From Clostridia bacterium (GTDB lineage: Bacteria; Bacillota; Clostridia; TANB77; CAG-508): a stretch of DNA of 64,000 nt. Location: positions 1 to 64,000 of the forward strand of contig JAFWNQ010000025.1 of assembly GCA_017510245.1 (NCBI GenBank). Direction: 5' to 3'. The position numbers and the translations under genes are program-made. The notes beneath the pieces were generated by a model. That model ran no database searches. It saw nothing but the letters and a program-made list of their open reading frames with translations, and was not told where the DNA came from. Of this stretch, positions 12,845-35,397 are shown one piece after another. The number at the start of each line of letters is the position of its first letter. Position 1 is the first letter of the stretch.

Positions 12845-12862
12845 TAATGGATGGAGCTGCTA

Positions 12863-14167: not shown

Positions 14168-14174
14168 AAATAAT

Positions 14175-14327: not shown

Positions 14328-14446
14328 AAAAAGCAAAAAAGAGATGAGTTATTGAGAATGATTGATAATTATTAGGCTAATGAAAATAAAAATAGTATAT
14401 TACATAACGAGAAAGATAATCTATTTCTTATTAGAGAGGGAAAAAA

Positions 14447-15904
14447 ATGTTAAAAAAATTTTATGTACACTATAAAAAGATGTCAGTTGTTGCAAAAGCA
14501 GCAATTTGGTTTGTATTTTGTACTGTTTTACAGAAAGGTATTGCCTTTATTACAGTTCCTATTTTTACGAGAATAATGCCTGCAGATGAATATGGGATGT
14601 ACAGCACATACTTATCATGGTACAGCATTATAGCAATTATTTGTACATTGAATATGCATAGTTGTGTGTATTTAAATACCATTGCAAAAAGGAAATCTGA
14701 AGAAGAAAATGATAAAGATGCAATATCAATGCTTTCGTTATCAGGATGTTTAACCTTATTAATTTTTGCAATATACATAATTTTTCAAGACTTTTTTAAT
14801 AAAATAATAGGATTGCCAACAGCATTGGTAAGTCTAATATTTGCACAAGTATTGTTTGAACCATCAGTAAATTTTTGGTCGACTAAGCAAAGGTTTAAAT
14901 ATAGATATATTAAATTAGTCATAAGAACAATTACTATGGTAATTTGTAATGCAGTACTAGGAATATTATTTGTATTAATCGCTAACAAAAATGAAGCAAT
15001 AGCAAGAGTGCTATCTATTGTTTTAGTTCAAATGATTTTTGGAGTGGCATTATACACTTATTATGTTAAGAGGGCAAAAAAAATATTTCATATAAATAAT
15101 TGGAAACACTATCTAGAGGTTCAACTACCTTTACTACCTCATAGTTTATCACTTACAATTCTTTCATCATCAGATAGGATTATGATAAATAACCTTGCGG
15201 GAAAAACAGAAACAGCATTATATAGTGTTGCGTATTCAGCAGGATATGTAGTTAATGTGCTAAAGAATAGCATTGTAGATGCATTAAGACCTTGGATGTA
15301 TAAAAAAATAAAAGAAAAAGATTTTACTAGTATAAGAAAAAATGTTAATACGGTTATGATTTTAATTACTTTAATTAGTATAGTTTTTACAGCTTTTGCA
15401 CCTGAAATAGTAAGAATTATGGCACCAGAACAATACTATAGTGCAATATACACAATACCACCAATAGCTGCAGGTTCTTTTTTTACATTTTTGTATAATA
15501 TATTTTCAATTCTAGGTTTTTATTATGAGCAAACAAAAAAAATTATGGTTGCATCAGTATCAGGAGCAGTTATAAATATAGTTTTAAATTTTGTATTTAT
15601 TCCAATATTTGGTTTTGTTTCCGCAGCATATACAACTTTAGTATCTTATTTTTTTCTTTCTGCTGCTCATTATTATATTATGAGGTTAATATGCAAAAAG
15701 AAATTAGATAATGCTCAAATCTATGATATGAGATTTATAGGGATTATGTCAGTTATAGTGTTAGCTTTTGCCAGTGTATTTACAATAACATATAGTAGCA
15801 TCATTATTAGATATGGCATAATTATACTAGTTATAGCTGTTATAACAATTAAGAGAAATATTTTTATTTCGGTACTTAAAGATTTAAAAAAAGATAAAAA
15901 TTAA
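14447..15904 (+). CDS. Wzx-like flippase / polysaccharide biosynthesis (MATE/MOP) protein
   Basis: A 485-aa multipass protein (about 12-14 helices) of the MOP exporter superfamily that flips undecaprenyl-linked repeat units outward. Recognisable parts are the N-terminal KGIAFITVPIFTRIMPADEYG, the central LPLLPHSLSLTILSSSDRIMINN and the C-terminal repeats. It pairs functionally with the polymerase at 12863. Ribosome site AGAGGG. It follows the relic gap, so it may have its own promoter, although none is clear. Confidence 0.92.
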   Translation: MLKKFYVHYKKMSVVAKAAIWFVFCTVLQKGIAFITVPIFTRIMPADEYGMYSTYLSWYSIIAIICTLNMHSCVYLNTIAKRKSEEENDKDAISMLSLSGCLTLLIFAIYIIFQDFFNKIIGLPTALVSLIFAQVLFEPSVNFWSTKQRFKYRYIKLVIRTITMVICNAVLGILFVLIANKNEAIARVLSIVLVQMIFGVALYTYYVKRAKKIFHINNWKHYLEVQLPLLPHSLSLTILSSSDRIMINNLAGKTETALYSVAYSAGYVVNVLKNSIVDALRPWMYKKIKEKDFTSIRKNVNTVMILITLISIVFTAFAPEIVRIMAPEQYYSAIYTIPPIAAGSFFTFLYNIFSILGFYYEQTKKIMVASVSGAVINIVLNFVFIPIFGFVSAAYTTLVSYFFLSAAHYYIMRLICKKKLDNAQIYDMRFIGIMSVIVLAFASVFTITYSSIIIRYGIIILVIAVITIKRNIFISVLKDLKKDKN

Positions 15905-15947
15905 CAATAATTGTTTATACTGAATAAAGAAAAGGAGAAAAAGTCCA

Positions 15948-16745
15948 ATGAAAGAATTAAACAAAGAAGAATTAAAAAATGTACAGTTAGAAATTTTAAA
16001 ATATATTAATACAATTTGCAAAGAAAATAACATAACTTATTATATTTTTTTTGGAACACTAATTGGTGCAGTTAGACACAAAGGTTTTATACCATGGGAT
16101 GACGATGTAGATATATGTATAAAGAGAGAAGAGTACAATAGATTTATTAAAGTCGTACAGAAAGATAAAAAATATAATCTTATTAGCTTTGAAACAGATC
16201 CTAATTACTATTTCCCATTTGCAAGAGTGTCAGATAAAAAAACTCAACTAGTTTTAAAAAACATTAGAGATATTAATAATTTTGGTGTGTTTGTTGATGT
16301 ATTCATAATAGATAACGCTCCAAATGAAGATGAATTTGAAGAGTGGTATAAAAAATATCAAAAACTAAATAAAAAAGTAAGAATGACGGTTCCTACTAAA
16401 ATAAAAAAGACAAGTTTTAGAGGAAAACTTTCTAGAATAAAGCATTTTCCGGAGAGAATTTTCTATGGAGTGAAAAATTTCAGCAAATATACGAACGAAT
16501 TAAATGAACTAATAACAAAATATAATAGTATTGAAACAGAAAAATGCATGGTTGCCTATGGCACAAAAGAAATTTTTAACAAAAGAGATTTTAAAGATAC
16601 CGTTGAACTAAACTTTGAAAATATTAAAGTATCAGCACCTATAGGATATGATCAAATATTGAGGCAGATATACGGAAACTACATGGAATTACCACCAGAG
16701 GACAAAAGAGCAAGTCATCATCATTTTACTGCATATTGGAAATGA
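15948..16745 (+). CDS. LicD-family phospho(no)choline-type transferase
   Basis: LicD proteins transfer phosphocholine or similar groups from a CDP donor onto glycans. The 265-aa protein has the family core FFGTLIGAVRHKGFIPWDDD (residues 25-44), with the DDD(V)D acidic cluster, and FPFARVSDKKTQL, FGVFVDVFIIDN. It directly precedes a cytidylyltransferase and three phosphonate genes, so its donor is more likely CMP-2-hydroxyethylphosphonate than CDP-choline (inferred; no choline uptake or kinase genes are seen here). Ribosome site AAAGGAG. Confidence 0.88.
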   Translation: MKELNKEELKNVQLEILKYINTICKENNITYYIFFGTLIGAVRHKGFIPWDDDVDICIKREEYNRFIKVVQKDKKYNLISFETDPNYYFPFARVSDKKTQLVLKNIRDINNFGVFVDVFIIDNAPNEDEFEEWYKKYQKLNKKVRMTVPTKIKKTSFRGKLSRIKHFPERIFYGVKNFSKYTNELNELITKYNSIETEKCMVAYGTKEIFNKRDFKDTVELNFENIKVSAPIGYDQILRQIYGNYMELPPEDKRASHHHFTAYWK

Positions 16746-16780
16746 GAAACTATAACAAAATAGAATAATAGGAGACTAGA

Positions 16781-17518
16781 ATGAAAGCATTAATTTTAAA
16801 TTCAGGCTTAGGAAGCCGTATGGGAGCACTAACTAGTGAACACCCAAAATGTATGACAGAAATTGACTCAAAAGATACAATTGTTAGTAGACAGCTTAGA
16901 CTACTAAACAATGCAGGAATACAAGATGTTGTAATGACAACAGGTCTATTTGATGATGTTCTAAGAGAGTATTGTGCTAGTTTAAACTTACCTTTAAACA
17001 TACAATTTGTACAAAATCCTATATTTAGGGAAACTAACTATATCTATTCTATTTATTGTGCAAGAGAATTGTTAGATGATGATATTGTATTAATGCATGG
17101 AGATTTAGTATTTTCTGAAGATGTACTATCTCAAACATTACATAGCAATGAGAGCTGTATGACTGTAAGCTCTACTGTACAACTACCAGAGAAAGACTTT
17201 AAAGCAGTAATTGAAAATGGTAGAATCAAAAAAGTAGGAATTGAATTCTTTGATAGTGCAATGGCAGCTCAACCACTATATAAAATAAATAGGAATGACT
17301 GGAGAATATGGCTGGATAAGATTTCTAGTTTTTGTGAAAATGGAGACACAAAATGTTATGCAGAAAATGCATTTAATGAAGTATCTGATGAATTCAGTAT
17401 ATTACCTTTAGACGTTAAAAGCGAATTATGTGCTGAAATTGACAATCCCGAGGATTTAAAAAGAATATCTAGCATTTTAAAAAGAAGAAAAGGAGGGAGA
17501 GACAGAAATGAAAGATAA
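16781..17518 (+). CDS. NTP transferase, probable phosphonate cytidylyltransferase
   Basis: A 245-aa nucleotidyltransferase of the LicC/PntC type. The N-terminus MKALILNSGLGSRMG is the nucleotide-binding loop, followed by HPKCMTEI, FRETNYIYSIYCARE and the metal-binding aspartate in MHGDLVFSE; EIDNPEDLKR closes the domain. Enzymes of this type make CDP-choline or, beside PepM, CMP-phosphonates. The end overlaps the PEP mutase gene by 11 bases, linking the two. Activity with hydroxyethylphosphonate is inferred. Confidence 0.85.
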   Translation: MKALILNSGLGSRMGALTSEHPKCMTEIDSKDTIVSRQLRLLNNAGIQDVVMTTGLFDDVLREYCASLNLPLNIQFVQNPIFRETNYIYSIYCARELLDDDIVLMHGDLVFSEDVLSQTLHSNESCMTVSSTVQLPEKDFKAVIENGRIKKVGIEFFDSAMAAQPLYKINRNDWRIWLDKISSFCENGDTKCYAENAFNEVSDEFSILPLDVKSELCAEIDNPEDLKRISSILKRRKGGRDRNER

Positions 17519-18827
17519 TAATGAAGATAAAATAGTATATATGTGTATGTCGACAGATATTATTCATGGTGGACATATAAAAATTATAAATAAAGCAAAA
17601 AAACTAGGAAAATTAATTATAGGTGTATTATCCGATGAAGCGGTAATGGGGTATAAGAGAATCCCATTAGTACCACTTGAAGAAAGAAAAAAACTGTACA
17701 AGAATATAGAAGGAATATATAAAGTTGTTGAACAAAAAGAATTAAGCTATAAAGATAATATAAAAAGAATACAACCAGATTATGTTGTGCATGGAGATAA
17801 CTGGGTAACTGGATATCAACAACCTATAAGGGAAGAAGTAATTGAACTATTAAAAGAATATGGAGGAGAACTGGTTGAATTTCCGTATTCATCTGAAAAG
17901 AAATATAAGGATATTGATGAAAGAACAAGACAAGAGCTATCACTACCGGACTTTAGACGTTCACGATTGAAAAAGGCCTTAGAGATGAAGGGGTTAGTAA
18001 CAGCAATGGAAGCGCATAGTGGATTAACAGGACTATTAGTTGAAACTACGACTGTAAATGAAAAAAATGGAGGATTGAAGCAATTTGATGCTATGTGGAT
18101 TAGTTCACTTTGCGACTCTACAGATAAGGGAAAACCGGATATGGAATTGGTTGACATGACATCTAGATTTAGGACGATAGATGACATTATGGAAGTTACA
18201 ACTAAGCCTATTATCTTCGATGGAGATACGGGAGGTTTAAAAGAACACTTTGGATATACTGTAAAAACACTTGAAAGAATGGGTGTTTCTATGGTAATAA
18301 TTGAAGACAAAATAGGATTGAAAAAAAATTCTTTATTTGGAACTGAAGTTAAACAAACTCAAGATAGTATAGAGAATTTCTGTGAAAAGATTAAAGCGGG
18401 TAAAGAAGCACAAAAGTCTGAAGACTTTATGATTTGTGCTAGAATAGAAAGCTTAATATTAGAGCAAGGAATGGAAGATGCACTAAATCGTGCATTTGCA
18501 TTTGCTGAAGCAGGGGCAGATGCTATCATGATACATAGCAGAAAAAAAGAACCTGATGAAATATTTGAATTTGTTGAAAAATTTAGAGAAAAAGATGAAT
18601 TTACTCCAATAGTTGTTGTTCCAACATCATTTAATACGGTAACAGAAGAAGAATTCAAAGAAAGAGGAGTAAACATTGTTATTTATGCAAACCAATTAAT
18701 AAGAGCTGCATTTCCAGCTATGCAAAATGTGGCAAAAACAATATTGCAAAACCATAGAGCAAAAGAAGTTGATGACCAATGCATATCTATAAAAGAAATA
18801 ATAACATTAATACCAGAAGATTACTAG
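17508..18827 (+). CDS. pepM: Phosphoenolpyruvate mutase fused to a nucleotidyltransferase domain
   Basis: PEP mutase rearranges PEP to phosphonopyruvate, making the C-P bond that starts nearly all phosphonate pathways. The 439-aa protein has two parts: residues 9-140, a cytidylyltransferase-like fold with IIHGGHIKII and GYKRIPLVPLEERK; and residues 150-430, the PEP mutase barrel with FDGDTGG and the diagnostic EDKIGLKKNS (EDK-x5-NS). Start has AGGAGGGAG ten bases upstream. Similar two-domain PepM proteins are known; the role of the N-terminal domain is not settled. Translation is coupled to the upstream gene. Confidence 0.95.
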   Translation: MKDNNEDKIVYMCMSTDIIHGGHIKIINKAKKLGKLIIGVLSDEAVMGYKRIPLVPLEERKKLYKNIEGIYKVVEQKELSYKDNIKRIQPDYVVHGDNWVTGYQQPIREEVIELLKEYGGELVEFPYSSEKKYKDIDERTRQELSLPDFRRSRLKKALEMKGLVTAMEAHSGLTGLLVETTTVNEKNGGLKQFDAMWISSLCDSTDKGKPDMELVDMTSRFRTIDDIMEVTTKPIIFDGDTGGLKEHFGYTVKTLERMGVSMVIIEDKIGLKKNSLFGTEVKQTQDSIENFCEKIKAGKEAQKSEDFMICARIESLILEQGMEDALNRAFAFAEAGADAIMIHSRKKEPDEIFEFVEKFREKDEFTPIVVVPTSFNTVTEEEFKERGVNIVIYANQLIRAAFPAMQNVAKTILQNHRAKEVDDQCISIKEIITLIPEDY

Positions 18828-18839
18828 AAGGGAAATAAT

Positions 18840-19961
18840 ATGAATCAATTAATATTGTCATCTAAAGATGAATATAAAGAATTAAAAGATTTTTTTGAAA
18901 ATAGTAATATGAACAGCATTTTTATTGTGTGTACAGACGCGATTAATTTTTTAGAAATAAGAAAATTTTTTAATGATCTTTCTAAAACTATAAAAATAAC
19001 ATACTTTAATGAGTTTTTACCAAATCCAACATATGAATCTGTAGTTGAAGGAGTAAAAAGATTCAAAGAAAGTAAAAGTAATTTCATTGTTGCAGTTGGT
19101 GGAGGAAGTGCAATAGATGTTGCAAAATGTATAAAATTATATGCTAACATGGATGAAAATAAAAATTATTTAGAGCAAGAAATTATATCAAATGATATCA
19201 GCATACTTGCAGTTCCAACAACTGCAGGAACAGGAAGTGAAGCAACTAAATATGCAGTTATATATTACAACGGCGAAAAACAATCAATAAGTAGTGAAAG
19301 TTGTATTCCAAAATATGTTTTATTTGACTCTACTGCTCTAAAAACATTACCACTATATCAAAAGAAAGCTACAATGATTGATGCTCTAAGTCATTCAATG
19401 GAGTCATATTGGTCAATAAACTCTACAATTGAGAGCCAGGAATATTCTATAAAAGCATTAGAGCTAATAATTGATAATTATGAGGGATATTTAAACAGCG
19501 AAGATGAGGCTTGTGAAAAAATGCTACAAGCTGCAAACATAGCTGGAAAGGCAATAAATATTACTCAAACAACTGCTGGACATGCTATGTGTTATAAATT
19601 AACTAGCTTATATGGAATAGCACATGGGCATGCTGCTGGATTAGTAAATTCTGAACTATTCCCATATATGATTAGAAATATAGATAAGTGCAGGGATAAT
19701 AGAGGAAAAGATTATTTAAACAAAACATTCAACTATTTAAATCAAATTTTAGAAAATGAAGATTTTTTAAGAAATTTATTGAAAAAATTAGATTTATACA
19801 ATGTTGATATAAAAGAAGAAGATATAGATATACTTGTTAATTCTGTAAATACAACTAGATTAAAGAATAATCCTGTTTTATTAGAGAAGAGTGATATTAC
19901 AGTTGTGTATAAAAAAATACTTGATAGAATAAAGAAAGGAAGTAAATATGGAAGTAAGTAG
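18840..19961 (+). CDS. Iron-type alcohol dehydrogenase, probable phosphonoacetaldehyde reductase
   Basis: A 373-aa group III (iron-containing) dehydrogenase with GGGSAIDVAKCIKLY for NAD(P) binding, PTTAGTGSEATKYAV, and metal-site regions MIDALSHSMESYWS and GIAHGHAAGLV. Lying between pepM and ppd, it most likely reduces phosphonoacetaldehyde to 2-hydroxyethylphosphonate, like PhpC. No aminotransferase for 2-aminoethylphosphonate is present nearby, which favours the alcohol product. It overlaps ppd by 14 bases. Confidence 0.88.
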   Translation: MNQLILSSKDEYKELKDFFENSNMNSIFIVCTDAINFLEIRKFFNDLSKTIKITYFNEFLPNPTYESVVEGVKRFKESKSNFIVAVGGGSAIDVAKCIKLYANMDENKNYLEQEIISNDISILAVPTTAGTGSEATKYAVIYYNGEKQSISSESCIPKYVLFDSTALKTLPLYQKKATMIDALSHSMESYWSINSTIESQEYSIKALELIIDNYEGYLNSEDEACEKMLQAANIAGKAINITQTTAGHAMCYKLTSLYGIAHGHAAGLVNSELFPYMIRNIDKCRDNRGKDYLNKTFNYLNQILENEDFLRNLLKKLDLYNVDIKEEDIDILVNSVNTTRLKNNPVLLEKSDITVVYKKILDRIKKGSKYGSK

Positions 19962-21072
19962 TTTTGTTAAAATGTTAGGAGCAGATTTTTATACAGGAGT
20001 TCCAGATTCTCAATTAAAACCTCTCTGTAGTTATTTAATGAATACATATGGAATAGATAAGGAACACCACATAATAGCTGCAAATGAAGGAAACTGTACA
20101 GCTATAGCGGCAGGATATCATCTTGCAACAGGAAAAGTACCAGTTGTATATATGCAAAACAGTGGAGAAGGAAATATAATAAATCCAGTGACTTCTTTAC
20201 TTAATGACAAAGTATATGCAATACCTACAATATTTGTGATTGGGTGGAGAGGAGAACCTGGAATACATGATGAACCTCAACATATATTTCAAGGGGAAGT
20301 AACAGTAAAGCTTTTAGATGATATTGGGATAGACTCGTTTATAGTAAGCAAAGAGACTACAACTGACGAGTTAGAAAATAAAATGAGTGAATTTAAAAGA
20401 TTACTTAATGTAGGAAAAGACGTAGCTTTCATAATTAGAAAAGGTGCATTACAATATAATGAGAACATAGAATATAAAAATGACAACTCAATGGAAAGAG
20501 AAGAAGTAATTAAACACATTGTAAAGTATTCTAAAGATAATCCAATTGTTTCAACTACAGGTAAAGCAAGTAGAGAACTATTTGAAATAAGAGAAGCTAA
20601 CAATCAGGGGCATCAATATGACTTTTTAACAGTTGGCTCAATGGGTCATTCTTCCTCTATAGCATTAGGTGTTGCAATAAATAAACCAAACAAAAAAGTA
20701 TGGTGTATAGATGGTGATGGAGCAGCATTAATGCATCTTGGAGCAATGGCTGTAATTGGAAATATTAATCCAAATAACTTGGTACATATTGTAATAAATA
20801 ACGAGGCACATGAAACGGTTGGAGGAATGCCAACAGTTGCGAAAAAAACTGACTTATGTGGCATTGCTGATTCATGTGGATATAAAAAAGTAGCTAGTGT
20901 ATACAATTATACTGATTTAGATAAGATTTTAGAAGAAGCAACTAACAATAATGAATTAACATTTATCGAAATAAAATGCGCAATTGGTTCAAGAGAAGAT
21001 TTAGGAAGACCAACGACTACAGCAATTGAAAATAAAGAGAACTTTATGGAGTTTATAAAAGGAGTCAACTAA
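19948..21072 (+). CDS. ppd: Phosphonopyruvate decarboxylase
   Basis: Thiamine-diphosphate enzyme that converts phosphonopyruvate to phosphonoacetaldehyde and pulls the unfavourable PepM step forward. The 374-aa protein has TGVPDSQLKPLCSYL and AANEGNCTAIAAGYHLATG at the N-terminus (with the catalytic Glu), and the TPP/Mg site IDGDGAALMHLG...VINNEAHETVGG near residues 252-292. The C-terminal SREDLGRPTT is repeated as a relic at 23310. Ribosome site AAAGGAAG lies inside the end of the preceding gene. Confidence 0.94.
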   Translation: MEVSSFVKMLGADFYTGVPDSQLKPLCSYLMNTYGIDKEHHIIAANEGNCTAIAAGYHLATGKVPVVYMQNSGEGNIINPVTSLLNDKVYAIPTIFVIGWRGEPGIHDEPQHIFQGEVTVKLLDDIGIDSFIVSKETTTDELENKMSEFKRLLNVGKDVAFIIRKGALQYNENIEYKNDNSMEREEVIKHIVKYSKDNPIVSTTGKASRELFEIREANNQGHQYDFLTVGSMGHSSSIALGVAINKPNKKVWCIDGDGAALMHLGAMAVIGNINPNNLVHIVINNEAHETVGGMPTVAKKTDLCGIADSCGYKKVASVYNYTDLDKILEEATNNNELTFIEIKCAIGSREDLGRPTTTAIENKENFMEFIKGVN

Positions 21073-21115
21073 TATTGATTATAAACCTTGAAGTTTACTA
21101 GATTGGGGATAAAAA

Positions 21116-22333
21116 ATGAATAAAACTTATTTTGAAAGTAATAAAAAAAGAGATTGTACTGGATGTGGAGCATGTGCCCTTATTTGTCCACAAAAATGTA
21201 TAAAAATGATAGAAGATGAAGAAGGTTTCCTATATCCAAAAATTGACAAAACAAAATGCATTAAATGTAACTTATGTATTAAAAACTGTGCAAACAAAAA
21301 TGATAAAAAAGACATAAATGAAAGGGCATTTGCTGTTATAAATAAATCCAATGTGCAGAGAGAGAATAGTTCATCAGGAGGTTTTTTTTATTTACTTGCA
21401 GAGTATGTTATAAATAATAATGGTGTCGTTTTTGGTGTTACATTTAATGAAGACTTAGTTGCAATTCATAAATACGCAGTAAACATGAAACAATGCAAAG
21501 AGTTTTGTGGTTCAAAATATGTAAGAAGTGATCTAAAAGATTCATTCCAACAAGCTGAGGCTTTTTTAAAACAAGATAGAATAGTTCTTTTTACTGGCAC
21601 GGCTTGTCAAATTAATGGACTAAAAAAATATTTAAAAAAAGATTATAATAATTTAATACTATGTGATATATTATGTCATGCTAATCCATCTCCAAAGGTT
21701 TTTAAGTTTTATATAAAAAATCTGGAAATTAAAAACAAAAAAAAGGTTAAGAATGTTTTATTTAGAAGTAAGGAAAATGGATGGAAAAATCAAACTCCTA
21801 TAATTGAATATGATGACGGAAGTAGGAAAGAAGAAAACTCATATTTTAATGCGTTTGTGGAGGAAATGATAAACAGACAATCATGTTACTACTGCCAATT
21901 TGCTTCAAAAAGGAGAATTAGTGACATTACAATCGCAGACTTTTGGAAAATAGAAAGAGTAATACCAGATATGTATGATAGTAAAGGTGTGTCTTTAGTT
22001 AGTACAAATTCTTATAAAGGCAATCAATTGTTTGACATAATTAAAAATAAAACTAAATATAAAGAAGTAGATTACGACTTGGTTTGCTTATTTAATCACT
22101 ATAATAATGTACGACAACACCTAATGAGAAATATTTTTTTTAAGCAATTAGCAAATGGAACAATTAATGAGAGTAATATAATTAAAAAGTTTAATTTGTA
22201 TTCTAAAAAGTCAAGAATAATAAACAAAATATATAGATATGAAAGAACTGCAAAAAGAATAATTAGAATAAAAAGATATGAGAAAAGAAAAAGAAATAGA
22301 AATAGTAATAATACTTACAATAAATGGGTATAA
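21116..22333 (+). CDS. 4Fe-4S ferredoxin / FrhB-like (F420 dehydrogenase beta family) protein
   Basis: A 405-aa protein with an N-terminal double ferredoxin domain (CTGCGACALICPQKC and CIKCNLCIKNC, residues 16-60) and a C-terminal FrhB-like domain with ENSSSGGFFYLLAEYV, FTGTACQINGLKK, CDILCHANPSP and ISDITIADFWKIE. The name comes from coenzyme F420 hydrogenase, but polysaccharide-locus members occur in bacteria without F420 and often sit beside pyruvyltransferases. The exact reaction is unknown; a redox step on a nucleotide sugar or pyruvyl group is plausible. The last ~40 residues are strongly basic. Confidence 0.88.
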   Translation: MNKTYFESNKKRDCTGCGACALICPQKCIKMIEDEEGFLYPKIDKTKCIKCNLCIKNCANKNDKKDINERAFAVINKSNVQRENSSSGGFFYLLAEYVINNNGVVFGVTFNEDLVAIHKYAVNMKQCKEFCGSKYVRSDLKDSFQQAEAFLKQDRIVLFTGTACQINGLKKYLKKDYNNLILCDILCHANPSPKVFKFYIKNLEIKNKKKVKNVLFRSKENGWKNQTPIIEYDDGSRKEENSYFNAFVEEMINRQSCYYCQFASKRRISDITIADFWKIERVIPDMYDSKGVSLVSTNSYKGNQLFDIIKNKTKYKEVDYDLVCLFNHYNNVRQHLMRNIFFKQLANGTINESNIIKKFNLYSKKSRIINKIYRYERTAKRIIRIKRYEKRKRNRNSNNTYNKWV

Positions 22334-22459: not shown

Positions 22460-23309
22460 ATGATAAAAAAGGAAGAAATCTTTTAAAATATTTAATTGCG
22501 CTGGTAGGATTAGCTATGTTATTTTTCTTTATAATACAAAATCATTTGAAACTATAGAAACGGAAGAGTCAACAGAAATAAGAAAACTAAGGAAAATGTT
22601 ATAAAGTTTTGAAGAAACAGGTGATATAAATAGAGTAGTTTACTATGTATCTAGTAATGGTAATTCAACAGACGGAGCAGATATCAATCATCCAATATAA
22701 TTAAAAAGAGCAAATGCAATGACATTTCATGAAAATGATAAGATATTGTTAAAAAAGGTAATATTTTTTATGGAACTTTAGAGATTAAACATGATTCAAA
22801 GAAAGATGAATTGCTTTATATTGGAAGTTAAGGAGACAGTGAAAAGTCTTTAGTGGGCTGATATTTTAGTGGATTCAAATGAATGGAAATTACAAAGAGA
22901 ACAAATATATAGATTAGATTTATCAAAAGAAAGTTCATTTGTTGAAATAGGGAATGAATACAATGAGTCTTATAATATAGGAATCATTGAAGATGAAAAT
23001 GGTAACATTTATGGAAATAGAAAAGAAAGAATAAGCTTAATTGAATAAGAATTTGATTTTTACTGTGAAGATACATATTTATATGTAAAGGCTCATGATA
23101 ATCCATCAAACTTATTAGGTAAAATTAAACTAGTATCAAGAAATATTTTGGTAAGACTATATTCAAATACTATATTTGAAGGAATTATAGTACAAGAAAC
23201 AGGAGTACATGGAGTTACTAGAGCTACTAATAATGTTAAAATATTAATATAAAAGATTGTTTTATACAGAGAATAGGAGGTAGTATTCAAAAACTTGAGT
23301 CTTTTACTA
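22460..23309 (+). pseudogene. Decayed second copy of the dockerin beta-helix gene
   Basis: Broken by several stops and frameshifts, this stretch is homologous to the N-terminal third of the protein encoded at 23430. It retains a membrane segment (KGRNLLKYLIALVGLAMLFF), then YYVSSNGNSTDGADINHPI, FYGTLEIK, LLYIGS and EFDFYCEDTYLYVKAHD. The 5' part is clearly diverged from the intact gene, but from 23049 to 23309 it is nearly identical to 24051-24313, as if recently copied. It stops abruptly at a ppd fragment. The wider 22334-23429 region contains only this and that fragment. Confidence 0.85.
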
Positions 23310-23390
23310 AGTAGAGAAGAATTAGGGCGACCAACAATTTCTACATTGGATAATAAGTTGATGTTTATGGATTTTATGAAAGATAGTTAA
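23310..23390 (+). pseudogene. Relic of a second phosphonopyruvate decarboxylase C-terminus
   Basis: A 26-codon frame reads SREELGRPTISTLDNK...FMDFMKDS and stops, matching the C-terminus of Ppd at 19948 (SREDLGRPTTTAIENK...FMEFIKGVN). It is joined directly to the broken dockerin gene and lies 39 bases upstream of the intact one. The divergence shows it is not a recent copy of the intact ppd tail. Confidence 0.8.
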
Positions 23391-23429: not shown

Positions 23430-25946
23430 TTGAGCTACAAATTGAATAATAATTATAGAAAAAAAACAGTATATTTAGATTTCTTAAAGCGTATAAGTCT
23501 TATTTTGGCAATTGCTATTACTACTTTATTAATAGAAGTAAAGTATACAAATATTATTAGCGATGAAGTAGTAGAAGTTAGCAAGATTGAAAAAATTAGA
23601 ACCAGAATGGCTAATTCAAATAATTACAGAACATACTATGTTTCTGCTGATGGAACTTCAAACGATGGAACAGATATTAATAATCCAATGTCATTAAAGG
23701 AAGCTAATGCTAAAGTTTATGAAGGAAATGAAAAGGTTTTACTAAAACGTGGAGACACTTTTTATGGCACTTTAAAATTAAAAATAGCTAACGACGGACA
23801 AGAATCTATGCTTTATATAGGAAGCTATGGTAGTGGAAATAAACCTGTTATTAGTGGCGCGAATATATTAGTGAATCCTTCAGAATGGCAATTAGTTAAT
23901 AATCAAATTTATAGATTGAATATGGCAAATGAAAGTAGTTTTGCTGGAATAGGATTTGAATATAATGAGCCATTTAATATTGGATTTATTGAAGATGAAA
24001 GTGGGAATATACATGGCAATAGAAAAGAGAACATAGATTTATTAGCAAAAGAATTTGATTTTTACTGTGAAGATACATATTTATATGTAAAGGCTCATGA
24101 TAATCCATCAAACTTATTAGGCCAAATTAAACTAGTATCAAGAAATAATCTGGTAAGACTATATTCAAATACTATATTTGAAGGAATTATAGTACAAGAA
24201 ACAGGAGCTCATGGAATTACTAGAGCTACTAATAATGTTCAAAACATTTATGTAAAAAATTGTGTTATACAGAGAATAGGAGGTAGTATTCAAAAACTTG
24301 AGTCTTTTACTAGGTATGGCAATGGGATAGAATTTTGGGATGAAGCGAAAAACACTATAGTAGAAAATTGCATTATTAGAGATATTTATGATGCTGGATA
24401 TACAATTCAGTCTAATACAGTTACTACTGGTTTTTATAATAATATTTGTAGAAATAATATATTCATTAATTGTAGTTATTCTCATGAAATATTCTGCTAT
24501 AATAAAAATAATTTAGGAAAGGGTGATATTAAAAACTTTAAATATTATGGAAATATATCAATTAACGAAGGAAGAGGATGGGGATATGATGCACGACCAA
24601 GGAAAGAAACTGCAGCAGAGTTTACTGTATGGACTATTATTAATGATAGCGGAACCGATATTAAAGAATTTAATAATAGATCTTATAATCCAAGAAGATT
24701 ATATTATATAACTGGAAATACAATTAAAAGAGCAGGAGGAAATCTTAGAAAACTAATTCAATCACATAACAATTCATTCTACACTAATAATGATACAATA
24801 ATGTTAACCCGTGACAATAGCGAATTCAAAAGTACAAGTATACTAAATCAGTATGGATTAGAAATCAATTCAAGTTTTAGTAATCTAATTAGTACAGATT
24901 TAGACTATATACAAAATAAAACTATATTAAATTCAAATAACTACTCTGAGATAAAAGAGTACTACAATAAATTTGATGTTGCATACAGAAATAGAACAGC
25001 TATTACAAGTATCGTATTAAAAAACAAAGCAATTAAAGATAACAATTATGGTATTTATTCAAATAGAAAAGTTTCAAAAAAATATGATCAGTTTCTGCAA
25101 TCTGCTTCAAACATTATTTCAAACAATAAAAATATAAAAATAGCTACAATCAATACAATGTTTAATAAGCAGGTGGAACTCGTAGATGTAATATTAGAAG
25201 AGTTTTATAGTAATGCTAGAACATATCAAAACAAGAATACTACTATTGCAATTATAAAGGACATACTCAATATAACTGAAGATTATAAATCGATATTCTC
25301 ATACTATTTGATAAATGATAGTATTGAGGTTACTCCGACTATAACAAATATGATAAATGATACTATAAAAAAATACAATGAGAACGTTAATTCAAGTATA
25401 GGTGCTTCAACGGATTTTATTCAAAAAAGTAAGGACCTATATTTTGACATTTTATATCATGATGATTTGGTAGATAATTATTTAAAAAAACTGCAAATAA
25501 TGAAATTATGTGACATATCTATGGCAATAATTGATGTTGAAACAGGAAATGATGTCGATTACAACAGAAATTATTCAAGTTATGTTGTTGATGAAGATTA
25601 CATAAGGAATATTAAAGAAAATACAACAGTTATTAGTTTTCTTAATATATTAGGATTGCCTGATAATTATAAAGTATATGCTGAAAATGAAAAGAAAAAA
25701 AAGAAAAACAATATTATAGCAACTGGAGATACAATCAAACTAAATGGTACATATAGAATTGTTGTTACTGGAGATATATATGCAGATGGTGAGGTTAATG
25801 TAAAAGACCTAAATAAATTAAAAAACAAAGTATATAATAATATAGAACTTAATGAATTTGAAACATATGCTGCAGACATTAATAGTGACAGCATAATTGA
25901 TGAAAATGATATAGATGAATTAAAAGATATGATTTTAAATAATTAG
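23430..25946 (+). CDS. Secreted beta-helix protein with C-terminal dockerin
   Basis: An 838-aa exported protein. After a basic N-terminus and one hydrophobic segment (about 19-38) comes a right-handed parallel beta-helix region (about 65-330) opening YYVSADGTSNDGTDINNP and containing FEGIIVQETGAHGITR and VENCIIRDIYDAG, typical of pectate-lyase-like folds. Residues 330-770 have no clear family. The C-terminus carries two EF-hand-like dockerin loops, DIYADGEVNVKDL and DINSDSIIDENDI. TTG is the start, with AAAAGGAGAAAAGG upstream. It may be a glycan lyase or surface adhesin; no catalytic residues could be confirmed. Confidence 0.82.
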   Translation: MSYKLNNNYRKKTVYLDFLKRISLILAIAITTLLIEVKYTNIISDEVVEVSKIEKIRTRMANSNNYRTYYVSADGTSNDGTDINNPMSLKEANAKVYEGNEKVLLKRGDTFYGTLKLKIANDGQESMLYIGSYGSGNKPVISGANILVNPSEWQLVNNQIYRLNMANESSFAGIGFEYNEPFNIGFIEDESGNIHGNRKENIDLLAKEFDFYCEDTYLYVKAHDNPSNLLGQIKLVSRNNLVRLYSNTIFEGIIVQETGAHGITRATNNVQNIYVKNCVIQRIGGSIQKLESFTRYGNGIEFWDEAKNTIVENCIIRDIYDAGYTIQSNTVTTGFYNNICRNNIFINCSYSHEIFCYNKNNLGKGDIKNFKYYGNISINEGRGWGYDARPRKETAAEFTVWTIINDSGTDIKEFNNRSYNPRRLYYITGNTIKRAGGNLRKLIQSHNNSFYTNNDTIMLTRDNSEFKSTSILNQYGLEINSSFSNLISTDLDYIQNKTILNSNNYSEIKEYYNKFDVAYRNRTAITSIVLKNKAIKDNNYGIYSNRKVSKKYDQFLQSASNIISNNKNIKIATINTMFNKQVELVDVILEEFYSNARTYQNKNTTIAIIKDILNITEDYKSIFSYYLINDSIEVTPTITNMINDTIKKYNENVNSSIGASTDFIQKSKDLYFDILYHDDLVDNYLKKLQIMKLCDISMAIIDVETGNDVDYNRNYSSYVVDEDYIRNIKENTTVISFLNILGLPDNYKVYAENEKKKKKNNIIATGDTIKLNGTYRIVVTGDIYADGEVNVKDLNKLKNKVYNNIELNEFETYAADINSDSIIDENDIDELKDMILNN

Positions 25947-25970
25947 TTAATTCAGACTAATAAAAACAAC

Positions 25971-25999
25971 TTGACAATAAAAAGCAAATATTAGATAAT
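25971..25999 (+). promoter_or_regulatory. Promoter of the cohesin-like gene
   Basis: TTGACA, 17 bases, GATAAT, 33 bases before the ATG at 26033. It gives the cohesin gene, and perhaps the CpsC/D/B genes after it, a start separate from the upstream dockerin gene. Confidence 0.65.
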
Positions 26000-26032
26000 T
26001 AGTTTGAAAAAATAAACGATTAAGGGGAAAAA

Positions 26033-26875
26033 ATGAAAAGAATTATTAGAGTATTATTAATGGTTTTAGTGGTTGTATTTTTATTGATGTGTAAAACAAG
26101 CCTAGTAATCGCTGGATTACCAACAAATCCTGATTTGAAAGTTAAAATCAAATCAGATACTTCTGATTTGAAAAGCAAAAATAAAGTTTATTACAATGTT
26201 AGCCTTATTGATGTGGTTAATATAGATACTGAAAAATCAACAAGTTTTGAAGCCACAGTTAGTTATGATAGTTCTCTTTTAACTAATATGAGTATTAGTG
26301 GTCAAAATGGTTGGAGTGCAACTAAAAATGGAAATAAGATTTTGTTAGAATGTGATTCTTTTAATGCTGAACAGACTATTGCGACTATTAGTTTTGATGT
26401 AAAAACTCCTGTTCAAAAGACTACAAAAACAAAAATAAGTTTAACAAGTGTGACAGTTGATATACTTAATGAACATAATGCTGCATTTGAAAAAGTAGAT
26501 TCTGATGAAATTACAATAGGGGCTACAAGTGGAGGTTCATCTTCACAAAATGAAATACCATCACAAACAACTAATAGTGTAGAAAATGAGATAACAAGTA
26601 AAATACCAAGAACAACTGGAAATGAGGAAGTTATATATTCACAAGGAACACAAGGTGAATCTAGTATAAGTAGAAATACTAATTCAAACAATTCTGCTAA
26701 CACAAGTAATGGAAGTTCTCAAAAATTAAATACTATAGAAGCAGTTAAAGACTCAACAACTAGTAATAAACCTATACCACAAGCTGGTAGAACAGCAGTT
26801 ATATATATAGTAATCATAGCAATAGCTATAATAGGTGTATACACATTTATTAGAGATAAAAAGTTTTATGATTAA
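26033..26875 (+). CDS. Membrane-anchored cohesin-like protein
   Basis: A 280-aa surface protein: signal peptide (residues 1-28), one domain (about 33-165) with the cohesin pattern FEATVSYDSSLL, GNKILLECDS and ATISFDVKT, a Ser/Thr/Asn-rich linker (165-250) and a C-terminal membrane helix (about 253-273) followed by RDKKFYD. There is no LPXTG sorting signal, so it would be tethered by the helix. Cohesins bind dockerins, and the neighbour at 23430 ends in one. The cohesin call rests on pattern and context, so a related carbohydrate-binding beta-sandwich is possible. Confidence 0.7.
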   Translation: MKRIIRVLLMVLVVVFLLMCKTSLVIAGLPTNPDLKVKIKSDTSDLKSKNKVYYNVSLIDVVNIDTEKSTSFEATVSYDSSLLTNMSISGQNGWSATKNGNKILLECDSFNAEQTIATISFDVKTPVQKTTKTKISLTSVTVDILNEHNAAFEKVDSDEITIGATSGGSSSQNEIPSQTTNSVENEITSKIPRTTGNEEVIYSQGTQGESSISRNTNSNNSANTSNGSSQKLNTIEAVKDSTTSNKPIPQAGRTAVIYIVIIAIAIIGVYTFIRDKKFYD

Positions 26876-26951: not shown

Positions 26952-27653
26952 ATGGAAAACGAAGAAATTGATTTAAAAGAGGTAATTAATTTATTTTGGG
27001 AAAAAAGAGCAATTATTTTAGTGGCATTAATTATCTCAATAGTTTTAGGATGTGTATATACAATGTATTTAAAAGAGCCTAAATACACATCATCAGTTAC
27101 ATTACTTTTGGCACAAAAAGATGCTTCAGGAGATGGATCAAAAGCAGTAACACAAACTGATGTAACACTAAATGATAAGTTAATAGCTACATATAAAGAA
27201 TTGGCAAAAAGCAATTCAGTGGTTAGAGAGGTTATAAACAATTTAAATATCAATATGACTGAAGGAAAGCTTAAATCTGAAATAAATGTTACAGCAGTTA
27301 AAGATACACAAATATTAAAGATTTCAGTTACTGATTTGCAAGCTGTACAGGCACAGAAAATTGCAAATGAGCTTAGCCAGGTTTTTGTGAAGAAAACGGC
27401 AGATTTATATAAGATTGATAATATTAATATTGTGGATGAAGCTGAAATACCATCTGGACCAAGTAATGTAAACCACAAAAAGGACTTATTGATTTTTATG
27501 GCTGGTGGTGTTGTAGTAGCTATAATTGTTATATTGTTAATTAATGTATTAGATACTACTGTAAAATCAGCAGCTGATGTTGAAAAATCTGTTGATTTAA
27601 TGATTTTGGCTGAAGTACCTGAATGTAATTTTGATGGAAAGAAAATCGTATAG
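26952..27653 (+). CDS. cpsC: Wzz/CpsC-type chain-length determinant, tyrosine kinase adaptor
   Basis: A 233-aa polysaccharide co-polymerase with two membrane helices (about 20-39 and 177-198) flanking an extracellular domain. The N-terminus MENEEIDLKEVINLFWEKR is the Wzz family opening, and PSGPSNVNHKKDLLIF is the conserved proline-rich motif before helix 2. In Firmicutes this protein activates the separate cytoplasmic kinase encoded next (27666). The gene set CpsC-CpsD-CpsB controls polymer length and export. Confidence 0.93.
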   Translation: MENEEIDLKEVINLFWEKRAIILVALIISIVLGCVYTMYLKEPKYTSSVTLLLAQKDASGDGSKAVTQTDVTLNDKLIATYKELAKSNSVVREVINNLNINMTEGKLKSEINVTAVKDTQILKISVTDLQAVQAQKIANELSQVFVKKTADLYKIDNINIVDEAEIPSGPSNVNHKKDLLIFMAGGVVVAIIVILLINVLDTTVKSAADVEKSVDLMILAEVPECNFDGKKIV

Positions 27654-27665
27654 GTGGGAGGAAAA

Positions 27666-28586
27666 ATGAAGAAAGAAATAATTACAAGTGTAGATCCTAA
27701 ATCTCCAGTTTCTGAAGTGTTTAGAGCTCTAAGAACTAACTTACAATACTTAAATAAAAATGATGGTGTACAAACTATTTTAATTACTAGTACTATGCAA
27801 GGAGAAGGAAAATCATTTGTTGCTGCAAATTTAGCAGTAACTTTTGCACAAGCAGGCAAAGATGTTTTAATAATTGATACAGATATGCGTAGGCCTAGAC
27901 AGAATAAAATTTTTGATACTGATTTATATCCAGGACTATCTAACTTTTTATCTGGAGTTAATATATATAGAAGCTCTCATGAAGTTAAGCTTAAAGAGTG
28001 TATATACAAAACAAAGATAGATAATCTAAGTTTATTACCAGCTGGAAACATTCCTCCAAACCCATCAGAACTTTTACAATCAGAAAAACTTCCAGAACTT
28101 ATAAAAGAATTAAAAGGAATGTTTGACGTTTTGATTTTTGATGGAGCACCTTGCTTATTGGTTACAGATGCAACTTTAGTATCAAGACTAGTAGATGCTA
28201 CTATTTTAGTGTGCTCACAGAGAAAAACAAGAATAGAAGAATTAAAAGAAGCTAAAACAAGAATAAAAAGAGTTGGTGGAAATATAGCTGGTGTTGTTTT
28301 AAATAGAGTTAAAGTATCTAGCAAAAAATATGGAGAGAAATATTATTATGCTAGTACTGAAAAAGAAAATAAGTCAAGAAAACATCAAGCATCTAAGCGT
28401 AAAAAAGATTATTTTGCATATGAAGAAGATGTTGATGATGATGTTGAATATATTGAGCCAAAAGAAGAAACTAAAAAAAGAACTACAACGAAGAGTAGAA
28501 AATCTGAACCAACTGATAGTTCTAATTCAGATAAAATAAGAGAAATATTGGCTGAAATTAATAAAGTAAAAGAGGATAATAAATAA
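27666..28586 (+). CDS. cpsD: CpsD/CapB family tyrosine-protein kinase
   Basis: BY-kinase that autophosphorylates a C-terminal tyrosine cluster. The 306-aa protein has Walker A MQGEGKSFVAANLAVTFAQ, Walker A' VLIIDTDMRRP and Walker B VLIFDGAP. The tail has tyrosines in KKYGEKYYYAS, DYFAYEED and VEYIEP and ends in a long charged extension. ATG 27666 is chosen because the GGGAGGA before it is the ribosome site; a GTG at 27654 would lie across that site. The stop codon overlaps the next start by one base. Confidence 0.95.
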   Translation: MKKEIITSVDPKSPVSEVFRALRTNLQYLNKNDGVQTILITSTMQGEGKSFVAANLAVTFAQAGKDVLIIDTDMRRPRQNKIFDTDLYPGLSNFLSGVNIYRSSHEVKLKECIYKTKIDNLSLLPAGNIPPNPSELLQSEKLPELIKELKGMFDVLIFDGAPCLLVTDATLVSRLVDATILVCSQRKTRIEELKEAKTRIKRVGGNIAGVVLNRVKVSSKKYGEKYYYASTEKENKSRKHQASKRKKDYFAYEEDVDDDVEYIEPKEETKKRTTTKSRKSEPTDSSNSDKIREILAEINKVKEDNK

Positions 28587-29293
28587 TGATAGATATTCAT
28601 ACACACATTTTACCTTGCATTGATGATGGAGCTAAAAGTATAGAAGAGACATTAAAAATGATAAACGAAGCCTATATGGCTGGATTTACAGAAATAATAA
28701 CTACTTCACATTATATTGATGGGCATTTTGATGTTAATAAAGATGACAGACAACTACTCATAGATAATATAGAAGAGCTAATTTCTGTAGACTTAAAATT
28801 GCACAATGGAGCAGAATCATATATTACACCTAATCTTGTAGAACTATATAATGAAGGGCAAATCCCAACATTAGCTAATAGTAGATATGCACTTTTTGAA
28901 TTACCTATGAATACTGAAATATTATATGCTGATAGTATAATAAATGAGTTGATAAATAATAACTATATTCCAGTAATAGCTCATCCAGAAAGATATCAAT
29001 TTGTACAAAAGAATATAAAAAAAGCATATGATTTTATAGAAAGAGGAGCACTACTTCAGTGCAACTATGGAAGTTTTATAGGAAGATATGGAAATGAAGC
29101 ACAGAAAATAGCAATAAAATTATTAAAGAATGATCAGATTACTTTTTTAGGTACAGATACTCATAGATGTGATTCGATTTATACTAAAATAGATGATATT
29201 ATTCAAAAACTTGAAAAGACTGTAGGTATAGATAAAGTTGAAGAACTAACAGTTGAGAATCCTAAAAAGATATTAAATAATGAATATATATAA
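28586..29293 (+). CDS. cpsB: CpsB/CapC/YwqE PHP-type tyrosine phosphatase
   Basis: Metal-dependent phosphatase of the PHP superfamily that dephosphorylates the CpsD kinase. The 235-aa protein starts MIDIHTHILPCIDDGAKS with the first metal ligands, followed by TTSHY, IPVIAHPERY and LGTDTHRCD. Length is typical. It overlaps cpsD by one base (taATG), a clear sign of coupling, and closes the CpsC-D-B set and the first polysaccharide locus. Confidence 0.94.
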   Translation: MIDIHTHILPCIDDGAKSIEETLKMINEAYMAGFTEIITTSHYIDGHFDVNKDDRQLLIDNIEELISVDLKLHNGAESYITPNLVELYNEGQIPTLANSRYALFELPMNTEILYADSIINELINNNYIPVIAHPERYQFVQKNIKKAYDFIERGALLQCNYGSFIGRYGNEAQKIAIKLLKNDQITFLGTDTHRCDSIYTKIDDIIQKLEKTVGIDKVEELTVENPKKILNNEYI

Positions 29294-32370: not shown

Positions 32371-35300
32371 ATGAAAAAATCAATTATTAGAAATTTAATA
32401 GTATTTTTTATATCATTAATAATATTTTTTATTCCAAGTTTAACATATTCATATGAGAATATATTATTTGGAGATATAAATGGTGATGGCAAGGTAGATT
32501 CAATAGATCTACTTTATATTATGAGGCACATCGTAGCAGAAAATGGATATGAACATAAGGAATGGATTTTAGAAGGCGAAAAGTTTAATGTAGCAGATGT
32601 GACTCAAAATGGTGCAGTAAATTCAAGTGACTTATTAGTGATATTAAGATATATAGCAGCAAAAAATAATCCAGAAGAGATAGGAATAAAACATAAAGAT
32701 TGGTTAGAATTAAAAGTAATAAATGTAAAAAAGGAAGATAGTAGAAAGAATCAAGAAGATAATTCATCTTATTCACAAAATGCAATAAAAGAAAACAATA
32801 ACATAGAAATAGATAATAAAGTTGAAGAACCAGATGTAAAAGAAGATGAAATAAAATCGATAAAACTAAATAAATCATTAATAGAAATAGAAAAAGAAGA
32901 AACAGAACAAGTAATAGCAATAGTAGAGCCAAAAGAATCAAACAATGAAATAATAGAATGGAAAGTATTAAATACACAAATAGCAGAAGTAGATGAAACA
33001 GGAAAAATCACAGGTAAGAAAAATGGAGAGACAATAGTAATAGCAAGAACAACAAATGGAAAAGAAGCAGTAAGTAAAGTAAGAGTAGGAACATATCCAA
33101 AGGCAATAGTAATAAATAAAGAAGAAGTAAAAATAGACTTAAGTAAAAAAAGAACAGAGAAGGTTGAAGTAAGAGTAGAACCAGAAGATGCAAGTAACAA
33201 AGAAGTAGAGATAGAGAATAGTAATGAAAGAGTAGCAACAATAGATAAAGAAGGAAAGATAACAGCTAAGGAGAATGGGGATACAGAATTAACATTTAAG
33301 ACAGCAAATGGAATAGAGAAAAAGATAAAAGTAAAAGTAGAAACAAGTGCAATTGGAGTGAAATTAGATAAGAACTATGTACAATTAGATTTAAGTCAAA
33401 ATAAAGAAAGTATAGTAAAAGCAACAGTAGAACCAAGTACAGCAAGTAATAAAGAAGTAACATATACAAGCAGTAATGAGAGAGTAGCAACAGTAGATAA
33501 GAACGGCAAGATAACAGCAAAAGGAAATGGAGAAACAAACATAATAGTAAAAACAACAAATGGAAAAGAAGCAGTATGTAAAGTAGAAGTACAAACAGTG
33601 GCAACAAAGATAAACATGGACAAAAGTGTAAGTATAGACCTGAGCAAAGAAAAAGAGAAGACAATAAAAGTTGAAGTAGAACCAAAAGATGCAAAAAATA
33701 AATCAGTAATGATAAGAAGCAGCAATGAAGAAGTAGCTACAATAGATGCAAATGGAACAATAAAAGCAAAGAAAAATGGAGAAGCAACAATAACAGCGGA
33801 GATAGCAGGAACAGATATAGTAGAGACATGTAAAGTAACAGTTATAACAAGTCCAACAGGGTTAAAGCTAAGTAAAACAAACGTAAGCTTAGATGTAAGT
33901 GAAACAAAATCAACAAAACTAACAGCAGAAGTAGAGCCAAGTACAGCTAGTAATAAAAATATAAAATGGACGAATGGAAATAGTGAAATAGTATATTTAA
34001 GTTCAACAGGAGAAGAAGCAACACTAACAGGATTAGAAAATGGGGAAGCAACGATAATTGCAACAATAGAAGGAACGAATATAAGTAAAGAATGTAAAGT
34101 AACTGTTACAACAAGTCCAAAGAGTATAAAACTAAACAAAACTAGTGCAACTTTAGATATGAGTGGAACAAAAACAATACAACTAAGTGCAACAATAGAA
34201 CCAAGTACAGCAAGCAACAAAGAAATAACATATATTAGCAGTAACACGAGTATAGCAACAGTAGATAAAAATGGAAAAGTAGCAGGCAAGAAAAATGGAA
34301 CTGCAACAATAACTGCAAAAACATCTAACAATAAAGAATCGAAATGTACAATAACAGTACTAACCAATCCAACAGGAATACAATTAAACAAGAGTAGTTT
34401 ATCAATTAGAAATGGAAAAACAGCAATATTAACAGCAAAAGTTTTACCAAGTACAGTATCAAATAAAACGGTAACATGGAGTAGTAGCAACAAAGCAATA
34501 GCAGCAGTAGACAAAAATGGAAAAGTAACAGGCAAGAAAGTGGGAAGTGCAACAATTCTTGCAAAAACTAGCAATGGAAAAAAAGCATCATGTAAAATTA
34601 CAGTAATAAGAAAATATAACAATGATAGTTTAGAGCCAGATACTAAAAATTCTATTCTTGGTTGGCAAGAATACAATAAATACTATGGTTCGTATTATAT
34701 TACACAAACAGGAGCTTACGATGGTACTCACATTATAGCAGCTCAAAATGATGGAGTAATAAAAACACCTCGAGAAGTTGGTAGAAATGGAGGAAGACTA
34801 GCTTGGTATAATATAAAAACAGGTAAATTAACTAATACTTTAAAAATTGGACCAGAGGGATATCATATGGCTAGAATGGCTTATGATAGTGACAGGAATA
34901 TGGTTTTAGTAGGAGTTGTTGGAGAAAATAAACTAATACAAGTAAACAATTCTACAAAAAAATTTGCTTCGCAAAAATATACATACTTATCAGATGGAAC
35001 ATATAATTTGGCTTATGATTCTTATAATCATCAGCTATTAGGCTTCGCTGGAAATAATATTAATTTCTATAAATACAACAAGAATACTAATAAATATGTA
35101 AAAACTAAAAGTATCAAACTAAAGCCATCGGGTGTTTCAGGATATCCAGAGAACTTCTGCACAGATGGAGATGTAATATATGCTGTATATAGAATGGGAG
35201 GTTCAGTACCTAATGGAAAAGTTTTAGCATTTGATATAAACAGTGGAAAGTTAGTAGAAAGCCATAAGGAAAACGGTAGTAAATTTTATGTATACAAAAA

Positions 35301-35397
35301 TACAACGTCAGGACACGTACAAGATGCAATTATAGACAGTGAAGGAAAAATGTGGATGATTTGCGGACAAGTCTATTGGAAAGTAAAGAATTATTAA
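32371..35397 (+). CDS. Secreted protein: N-terminal dockerin, seven Ig-like repeats, propeller-like C-terminus
   Basis: A 1008-aa exported protein. Residues 1-29 form a signal peptide; about 32-100 a dockerin with two loops, GDINGDGKVDSIDLL and DVTQNGAVNSSDLL; 100-175 a charged spacer; then seven repeats of about 83 aa with the bacterial Ig-like (BIG2) pattern (VEPSTASNKEVTYTSSN, TVDKNGKITAKGNG, TTNGKEAVCKV); then a 260-aa C-terminal domain with repeated short strands (LAWYNIKTGKL, LAYDSYNHQLLGF, VLAFDINSGKL) like a beta-propeller. ATG 32371 fits the signal peptide and AGAAAGGA upstream; GTG/ATG at 32329 would add 14 residues. Likely a surface adhesin or scaffold client. Confidence 0.85.
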   Translation: MKKSIIRNLIVFFISLIIFFIPSLTYSYENILFGDINGDGKVDSIDLLYIMRHIVAENGYEHKEWILEGEKFNVADVTQNGAVNSSDLLVILRYIAAKNNPEEIGIKHKDWLELKVINVKKEDSRKNQEDNSSYSQNAIKENNNIEIDNKVEEPDVKEDEIKSIKLNKSLIEIEKEETEQVIAIVEPKESNNEIIEWKVLNTQIAEVDETGKITGKKNGETIVIARTTNGKEAVSKVRVGTYPKAIVINKEEVKIDLSKKRTEKVEVRVEPEDASNKEVEIENSNERVATIDKEGKITAKENGDTELTFKTANGIEKKIKVKVETSAIGVKLDKNYVQLDLSQNKESIVKATVEPSTASNKEVTYTSSNERVATVDKNGKITAKGNGETNIIVKTTNGKEAVCKVEVQTVATKINMDKSVSIDLSKEKEKTIKVEVEPKDAKNKSVMIRSSNEEVATIDANGTIKAKKNGEATITAEIAGTDIVETCKVTVITSPTGLKLSKTNVSLDVSETKSTKLTAEVEPSTASNKNIKWTNGNSEIVYLSSTGEEATLTGLENGEATIIATIEGTNISKECKVTVTTSPKSIKLNKTSATLDMSGTKTIQLSATIEPSTASNKEITYISSNTSIATVDKNGKVAGKKNGTATITAKTSNNKESKCTITVLTNPTGIQLNKSSLSIRNGKTAILTAKVLPSTVSNKTVTWSSSNKAIAAVDKNGKVTGKKVGSATILAKTSNGKKASCKITVIRKYNNDSLEPDTKNSILGWQEYNKYYGSYYITQTGAYDGTHIIAAQNDGVIKTPREVGRNGGRLAWYNIKTGKLTNTLKIGPEGYHMARMAYDSDRNMVLVGVVGENKLIQVNNSTKKFASQKYTYLSDGTYNLAYDSYNHQLLGFAGNNINFYKYNKNTNKYVKTKSIKLKPSGVSGYPENFCTDGDVIYAVYRMGGSVPNGKVLAFDINSGKLVESHKENGSKFYVYKNTTSGHVQDAIIDSEGKMWMICGQVYWKVKNY

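Follow-up and report, generated by a model that had tools for sequence, protein, structure and literature searches.

Cohesin-dockerin systems have mainly been studied as cellulosomes, and ScaE of Ruminococcus flavefaciens is a single-cohesin sortase anchor. The report on the Limousia mucinolysome describes cSca5 as a single-cohesin anchor of LPxTG type (PMC12997984), and anchoring scaffoldins and single-cohesin proteins are catalogued in a further study (PMC11557425). The 280-aa cohesin protein of the locus analysed here resembles ScaE and cSca5 in having one cohesin, a linker and a C-terminal LPXTG-type signal for wall display, features which are here predicted from the genes. It differs in that ScaE and cSca5 hold multi-cohesin scaffoldins bearing many enzymes, whereas here a scaffoldin was not found and the gene of an 838-aa client lies just upstream. 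The nearest cohesin folds are those of the non-cellulosomal GH84C and GH33 sialidase of Clostridium perfringens (2jh2, 2vo8, 2w1n), in which the cohesin lies within the enzyme and not, as here, on a separate predicted wall anchor. The non-cellulosomal cohesin 2xdh of Archaeoglobus fulgidus has the same fold but is archaeal, and we know of nothing that ties it to an EPS locus or to sortase signals.

The client can be compared with RbmB, VexL, PslG and AlgL, which are lyases or hydrolases encoded among polysaccharide genes. By fold comparison, the client has the same beta-helix fold as RbmB and VexL, and the PslG family is GH39, to which the client module of one related species (G017) is similar. 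These enzymes are, however, secreted or periplasmic in Gram-negatives, and to our knowledge none of them is held by a cohesin-dockerin interaction. Among the titles and abstracts listed in searches of the open-access literature, none described dockerin/cohesin gene pairs within an EPS locus.

The gene pair and its EPS locus

The window, meaning the whole 64,000-nucleotide stretch analysed, is part of contig C25 of a genome of 1.24 Mb that is 82% complete (G000), and the features of the window given below lie on the forward strand. Pfam matches delimit an EPS/capsule biosynthesis block at 3590–22333, with genes for a sugar transferase, LCP, several glycosyltransferases, Stealth, a pyruvyl transferase, Wzy, Wzx and LicD as well as phosphonate genes. 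The latter, at 16781–21072, encode a nucleotidyltransferase, a CTP-transferase/PEP-mutase fusion, an Fe-alcohol dehydrogenase and a phosphonopyruvate-decarboxylase-like enzyme; these phosphonate-type genes adjoin LicD, and the EPS probably carries phosphonate decoration. Downstream of the gene pair lie genes for a Wzz-type chain-length protein (26952–27653, PF02706), an adjoining CpsD-like P-loop ATPase of the bacterial tyrosine-kinase type (27654–28586, Pfam) and a CpsB/CapC phosphatase (28586–29293, PF19567), which bears out the EPS-locus setting given in a preliminary description of this DNA.

The client gene (23430–25946) has a TTG start with AAGGAG upstream and encodes a hydrophobic N-terminal segment, a beta-helix (residues about 65–480; 23622–24869), a helical region (residues about 485–705; 24882–25544) and a C-terminal dockerin. 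The beta-helix was modelled by AF2 with a pLDDT mostly of 85–95, and its closest fold is alginate lyase 6kfn (Z 25.8). Rhamnogalacturonan lyase, Pel9A, GH136 and phage depolymerases are further neighbours, the neighbours being mostly polysaccharide lyases, hydrolases and depolymerases and including RbmB, the Vibrio polysaccharide lyase. PF13229 aligned below threshold with the orthologue in G005, and two acidic residues, E301 and D321, are invariant across the beta-helix family. The N-terminal half is predicted to be a right-handed beta-helix of polysaccharide lyase/hydrolase type; that this is a beta-helix protein had been noted in the preliminary description. The fold alone is no proof of enzyme activity, as the pneumococcal adhesin PfbA has the same fold and is found, along with phage tail proteins, among the neighbours. 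The protein matched no curated enzyme family in Pfam or NCBIfam, and NCBIfam gave no name to either protein of the pair. Just upstream, 22641–23313 is a decayed partial copy of the 5′ part of the client gene (residues 68–295; 691 bp at 79% DNA identity), broken by frameshifts and in-frame stops; it is a scar left by duplication or recombination where the enzyme module is exchanged.

The dockerin spans residues about 777–836 (25758–25937). The type I dockerin model (Dockerin_1, PF00404) aligned with residues 781–836 over 56 of its 57 positions at 17.8 bits, below the cut-off of 22.9, while orthologues at the same locus in relatives pass the cut-off (for example 39.0 and 41.1 bits), and many solved dockerins are matched by a profile of six homologues. 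The domain has the duplicated pair of calcium-loop/helix segments, each of about 22 residues. Loop 2 is intact with D-N-D-D-D spacing, and loop 1 is degenerate with Y at position 3, where D, N or S is usual, so calcium dependence may be partial. Judged by sequence, the protein ends in a divergent dockerin, and the two EF-hand-like loops noted earlier are upheld by the orthologues and the profile; structural claims on this region are withheld because its pLDDT is under 50. A simple (-3,-1) rule for signal cleavage, applied to clients, cohesins and other dockerin proteins, placed a canonical site in no more than one of the eight EPS-locus clients, but in most of the cohesins tested and several other dockerin proteins; there is a weak hint that EPS-locus clients keep an uncleaved N-terminal membrane segment.

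The anchor gene (26033–26875, by ORF and orthologue alignment) encodes a cohesin domain (residues 31–167; 26123–26533) and a disordered Ser/Thr/Asn-rich linker (26534–26773, with pLDDT under 50 at residues 165–241). The protein itself has no Pfam cohesin match, and residues 31–167 were modelled by AF2 at high confidence as a cohesin beta-sandwich. Against the PDB, the best 13 rows from Foldseek were cohesins only, as were all of the best 33 rows from VIA-align, led by C. perfringens modules with Z of 14.4, 14.1 and 13.8; in the best match, 2jh2, 122 residues aligned at 2.2 Å. Orthologues from eight species of the genus (24–40% identical) were aligned together with other single-cohesin proteins of the genus, and of the 28 matches of the resulting profile among PDB sequences 27 were cohesins. 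Three orthologues gave PF00963 scores of 25.8 (G009), 20.6 (G011) and 20.5 bits (G012), with that of G009 alone passing the cut-off. By predicted fold and sequence profile the domain is a cohesin; a single cohesin-like domain on a Ser/Thr linker had been proposed in the preliminary description, to be given up if a confident model showed another fold, and the model obtained is that of a cohesin.

The C-terminus (26774–26872) has the layout of a sortase-type sorting signal, with the sequence PIPQAG, a hydrophobic helix and the basic tail RDKKFYD. IPQAG deviates from LPXTG. Orthologues keep [LIM]PQ[AT]G before the terminal helix, Gram_pos_anchor matches three relatives and the genome encodes seven sortases, and for these reasons the helix probably belongs to a wall protein's sorting signal. 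The LPXTG-like motif, hydrophobic segment and basic tail, in a genome with sortases, are those expected of a sortase substrate, and wall attachment is therefore likelier than plain membrane anchoring, which was rejected in view of the conserved motif. Of the earlier reading as a membrane-anchored protein the C-terminal helix stands, but as the helix follows IPQAG the membrane does not stand as the final anchor; the membrane-held state is probably only a precursor before attachment to the wall by sortase.

Conservation of the arrangement and exchange of the enzyme module

The order client, cohesin, Wzz, kinase and CpsB is kept in six related species (G002, G005, G011, G012, G014 and G017). In G027 the cohesin is separated from Wzz by one gene and has a dockerin gene directly upstream, and in G009 the cohesin is immediately upstream of Wzz, with the client elsewhere in the locus at a distance of about 6 kb. 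Outside the genus, the succession of dockerin, cohesin and Wzz-like genes was seen in two genera (L141, L157). Dockerin and cohesin are constant across species, but the enzyme module is not: the N-terminal module of the client is a beta-helix in six species, that of the window included, and is GH10-like in G002, GH39-like in G017 and Glyco_hydro_cc-like in G027. The helical region is kept even where the enzyme module is swapped.

The case for module exchange is built on three different enzyme architectures and on one close species pair, G011 and G012. Between these two, identity is 50% in the beta-helix (dS about 1.0) and the glycosyltransferases upstream are only distantly related, while identity reaches 93–94% in the helical region, dockerin, cohesin domain and Wzz (dS 0.1–0.46). 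The pattern looks like exchange of the enzyme module by recombination and suggests that the enzyme follows the polysaccharide.

These observations bear on what the client does. With the same docking and wall display, the beta-helix could act on host or dietary glycans of mucin or milk type, its position in an EPS locus being incidental. The closest sequence match of the beta-helix family is a GH136 lacto-N-biosidase (E 1.7e-9), which is also among its best folds, and Limousia mucinolysomes include a single-cohesin LPxTG anchor (PMC12997984). However, the sequence match covers positions 48–134 only, about 90 residues at the N-terminus, and membership of GH136 was not adopted on that ground; the fold match (Z about 21–22) is no better than that of other beta-helix families. 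As many species keep the locus beside Wzz, kinase and CpsB, and the module varies where the glycosyltransferases vary, an action on host or dietary glycans is considered unlikely. It is also conceivable, with the same docking, that the client has no catalytic role but binds EPS or is adhesive, keeping EPS on the wall or serving in adhesion, as could be argued from the fold shared with PfbA and phage tail proteins and from the lack of a curated family match. The GH10-like, GH39-like and Glyco_hydro_cc-like modules which fill the same slot elsewhere point to catalysis, and with the invariant E301 and D321 they leave a non-catalytic client a rather low probability.

A further explanation is that the paired domains have lost their interaction and that the pairing is a historical linkage, with which the degenerate loop 1 and the weak Pfam scores of both domains would agree. 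Both domains are nevertheless under purifying selection (dN/dS about 0.1 between G011 and G012) and are still in one locus despite the rearrangement in G009, so that a lost interaction seems highly improbable.

Cohesin-dockerin pairs and dockerin classes

Among 31 genomes of the genus, Pfam dockerins were found in 29 and Pfam cohesins in 15. Using profiles built in this study, 27 of the 40 cohesin ORFs of the genus have a dockerin ORF immediately before them on the same strand, mostly with gaps of 12–120 nt, against a background of about 3.5 Pfam dockerin matches per genome, each genome having roughly 1,300 genes as estimated from its size. Six of the remaining cohesin ORFs contain a dockerin themselves and two have one just downstream. 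In the wider family, relatives of the anchor alignment occur in 157 of 195 genomes and 38 of 39 genera, some matches covering the linker and sorting-signal end only, and 19 of 26 inspected anchors have a dockerin gene upstream. Distances of paired cohesins and dockerins correlate (Mantel r 0.78, the best of 5,000 permutations reaching 0.15; r 0.35, P 5e-4, for distant pairs only), which shows co-inheritance and not binding, as the test takes no account of linked genes sharing their descent. Identity between the paired cohesins of a single genome is only 12–23%.

Other arrangements were also observed. In G005, dockerin-bearing proteins of peptidoglycan-hydrolase type (Amidase_3; SH3 repeats) at L110 3142–6773 and 8982–12846 and at L111 3869–6509 each precede a membrane protein in which a small region is beta-sandwich-like, with Cadherin-like domains in the one scanned; these membrane proteins were considered as candidate cohesins, and in profile comparison they matched over the signal peptide and first strand only. 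A 4,468-aa frame in G027 (L112 498–13904) has a Pfam cohesin and dockerin near its N-terminus. Cohesins with an N-terminal membrane helix and no sortase signal were seen at L116 11006–14677 and L024 5747–6412, with adjoining dockerin-bearing proteins, of which that in L116 has a YkuD-like C-terminus. On contig C24 of G024, four Pfam dockerin matches lie on one strand at 1394–9059 in open frames about 2–3 kb apart.

The genome of the window contains four cohesin genes, three single-cohesin genes detected by PF00963 and the anchor at 26033, and at least 15 dockerin matches in the genome-wide count proposed earlier, a lower bound because nine of the fifteen lie near contig ends. The assembly breaks at near-identical dockerin-Big_2 genes (C1, C5, C6, C14, C18, C23, C24, C25 and C26). 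By sequence, the dockerins fall into three classes. The first is the C-terminal dockerin of the window, with the neighbouring cohesin at 26033; the second is that of a 1,943-aa protein on C18, with a cohesin partner gene directly downstream; the third comprises N-terminal dockerins with the motif SIDLLYxMRHI...NSSDLLxxLRYIA on about a dozen dockerin-Big_2 proteins. A YkuD-like domain stands at the end of at least one protein of this third class, and the same sequence motif occurs in another. One member on C14 adjoins two cohesin genes, whose products are likely partners of third-class dockerins.

The second dockerin protein reported earlier (32371–35397), with an N-terminal dockerin at 32470–32655 and seven Big_2 repeats, is real (49 bits, Pfam) and belongs to this third class; it is therefore probably no client of the anchor at 26033, and was rejected as such. 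That the anchor might bind several dockerin proteins, this one included, would be in keeping with the surplus of dockerin matches over cohesin genes and with cellulosomes, in which many dockerins can use one cohesin. Yet the cohesins of this genome are only 16–18% identical, the dockerins form separate classes and the third has its own two neighbouring cohesin genes, and such sharing is considered very unlikely. Of the earlier interpretation, a non-cellulolytic pair with a client of glycan-active type in an EPS locus stands, while the shared surface scaffold does not: the anchor has a single cohesin, the two genes recur together as a unit that includes its own client, and the dockerin of the second protein differs in class.

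A cellulosome was also considered and rejected. GH9 cellulase was found in none of the 31 genomes, the control search giving a signal, and a PF00963 search of the 82% complete genome found no multi-cohesin scaffoldin, in agreement with the statement in the preliminary description that neither is present. GH48 likewise gave no match in 31 genomes, but its control search gave no signal either.

Proposed mechanism and significance

It is considered probable that the two genes encode an EPS-processing enzyme and the dedicated single-cohesin wall anchor that holds it. From the computed folds, gene order, conservation, domain exchange and co-divergence we infer binding, sortase cleavage, calcium dependence, substrate and catalytic activity as follows. 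The 280-aa protein would be secreted, and sortase would probably cut the IPQAG signal and join the protein to peptidoglycan, so displaying one cohesin on a flexible linker. The client would be exported and plug its C-terminal dockerin into this cohesin, fixing the lyase/hydrolase-type beta-helix at the surface where the Wzx, Wzy and Wzz of the locus deliver EPS. The enzyme would most likely trim, release or edit the EPS of the cell itself, a substrate suggested by gene position and module exchange. With the enzyme module swapped along with the polysaccharide genes and the docking parts constant, the arrangement would resemble a new bit in a fixed tool holder.

More tentatively, and with rather less than even confidence, it is proposed that in this family of small-genome gut Clostridia cohesin-dockerin serves for general surface display, with a private sortase-anchored socket encoded next to each client and many mutually exclusive specificities. 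The clients would include an EPS enzyme, an adhesin-like repeat protein and perhaps a peptidoglycan hydrolase. In the EPS locus an uncleaved N-terminal segment might, in addition, keep the client in the membrane, in which case the plug would bridge membrane and wall around the site of EPS export. Should the pairs prove mutually exclusive, this family would supply many natural orthogonal lock-and-key pairs, which could be used for reading the specificity code and in protein engineering. Cohesin and dockerin are found here as two-gene units of client and anchor, without scaffoldins or GH9 and linked to polysaccharide export, and a cellulosome-type part seems to serve as a general surface-attachment device. 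If the proposed mechanism is true, it would show how a Gram-positive cell could hold a changeable EPS-cutting enzyme at its surface.
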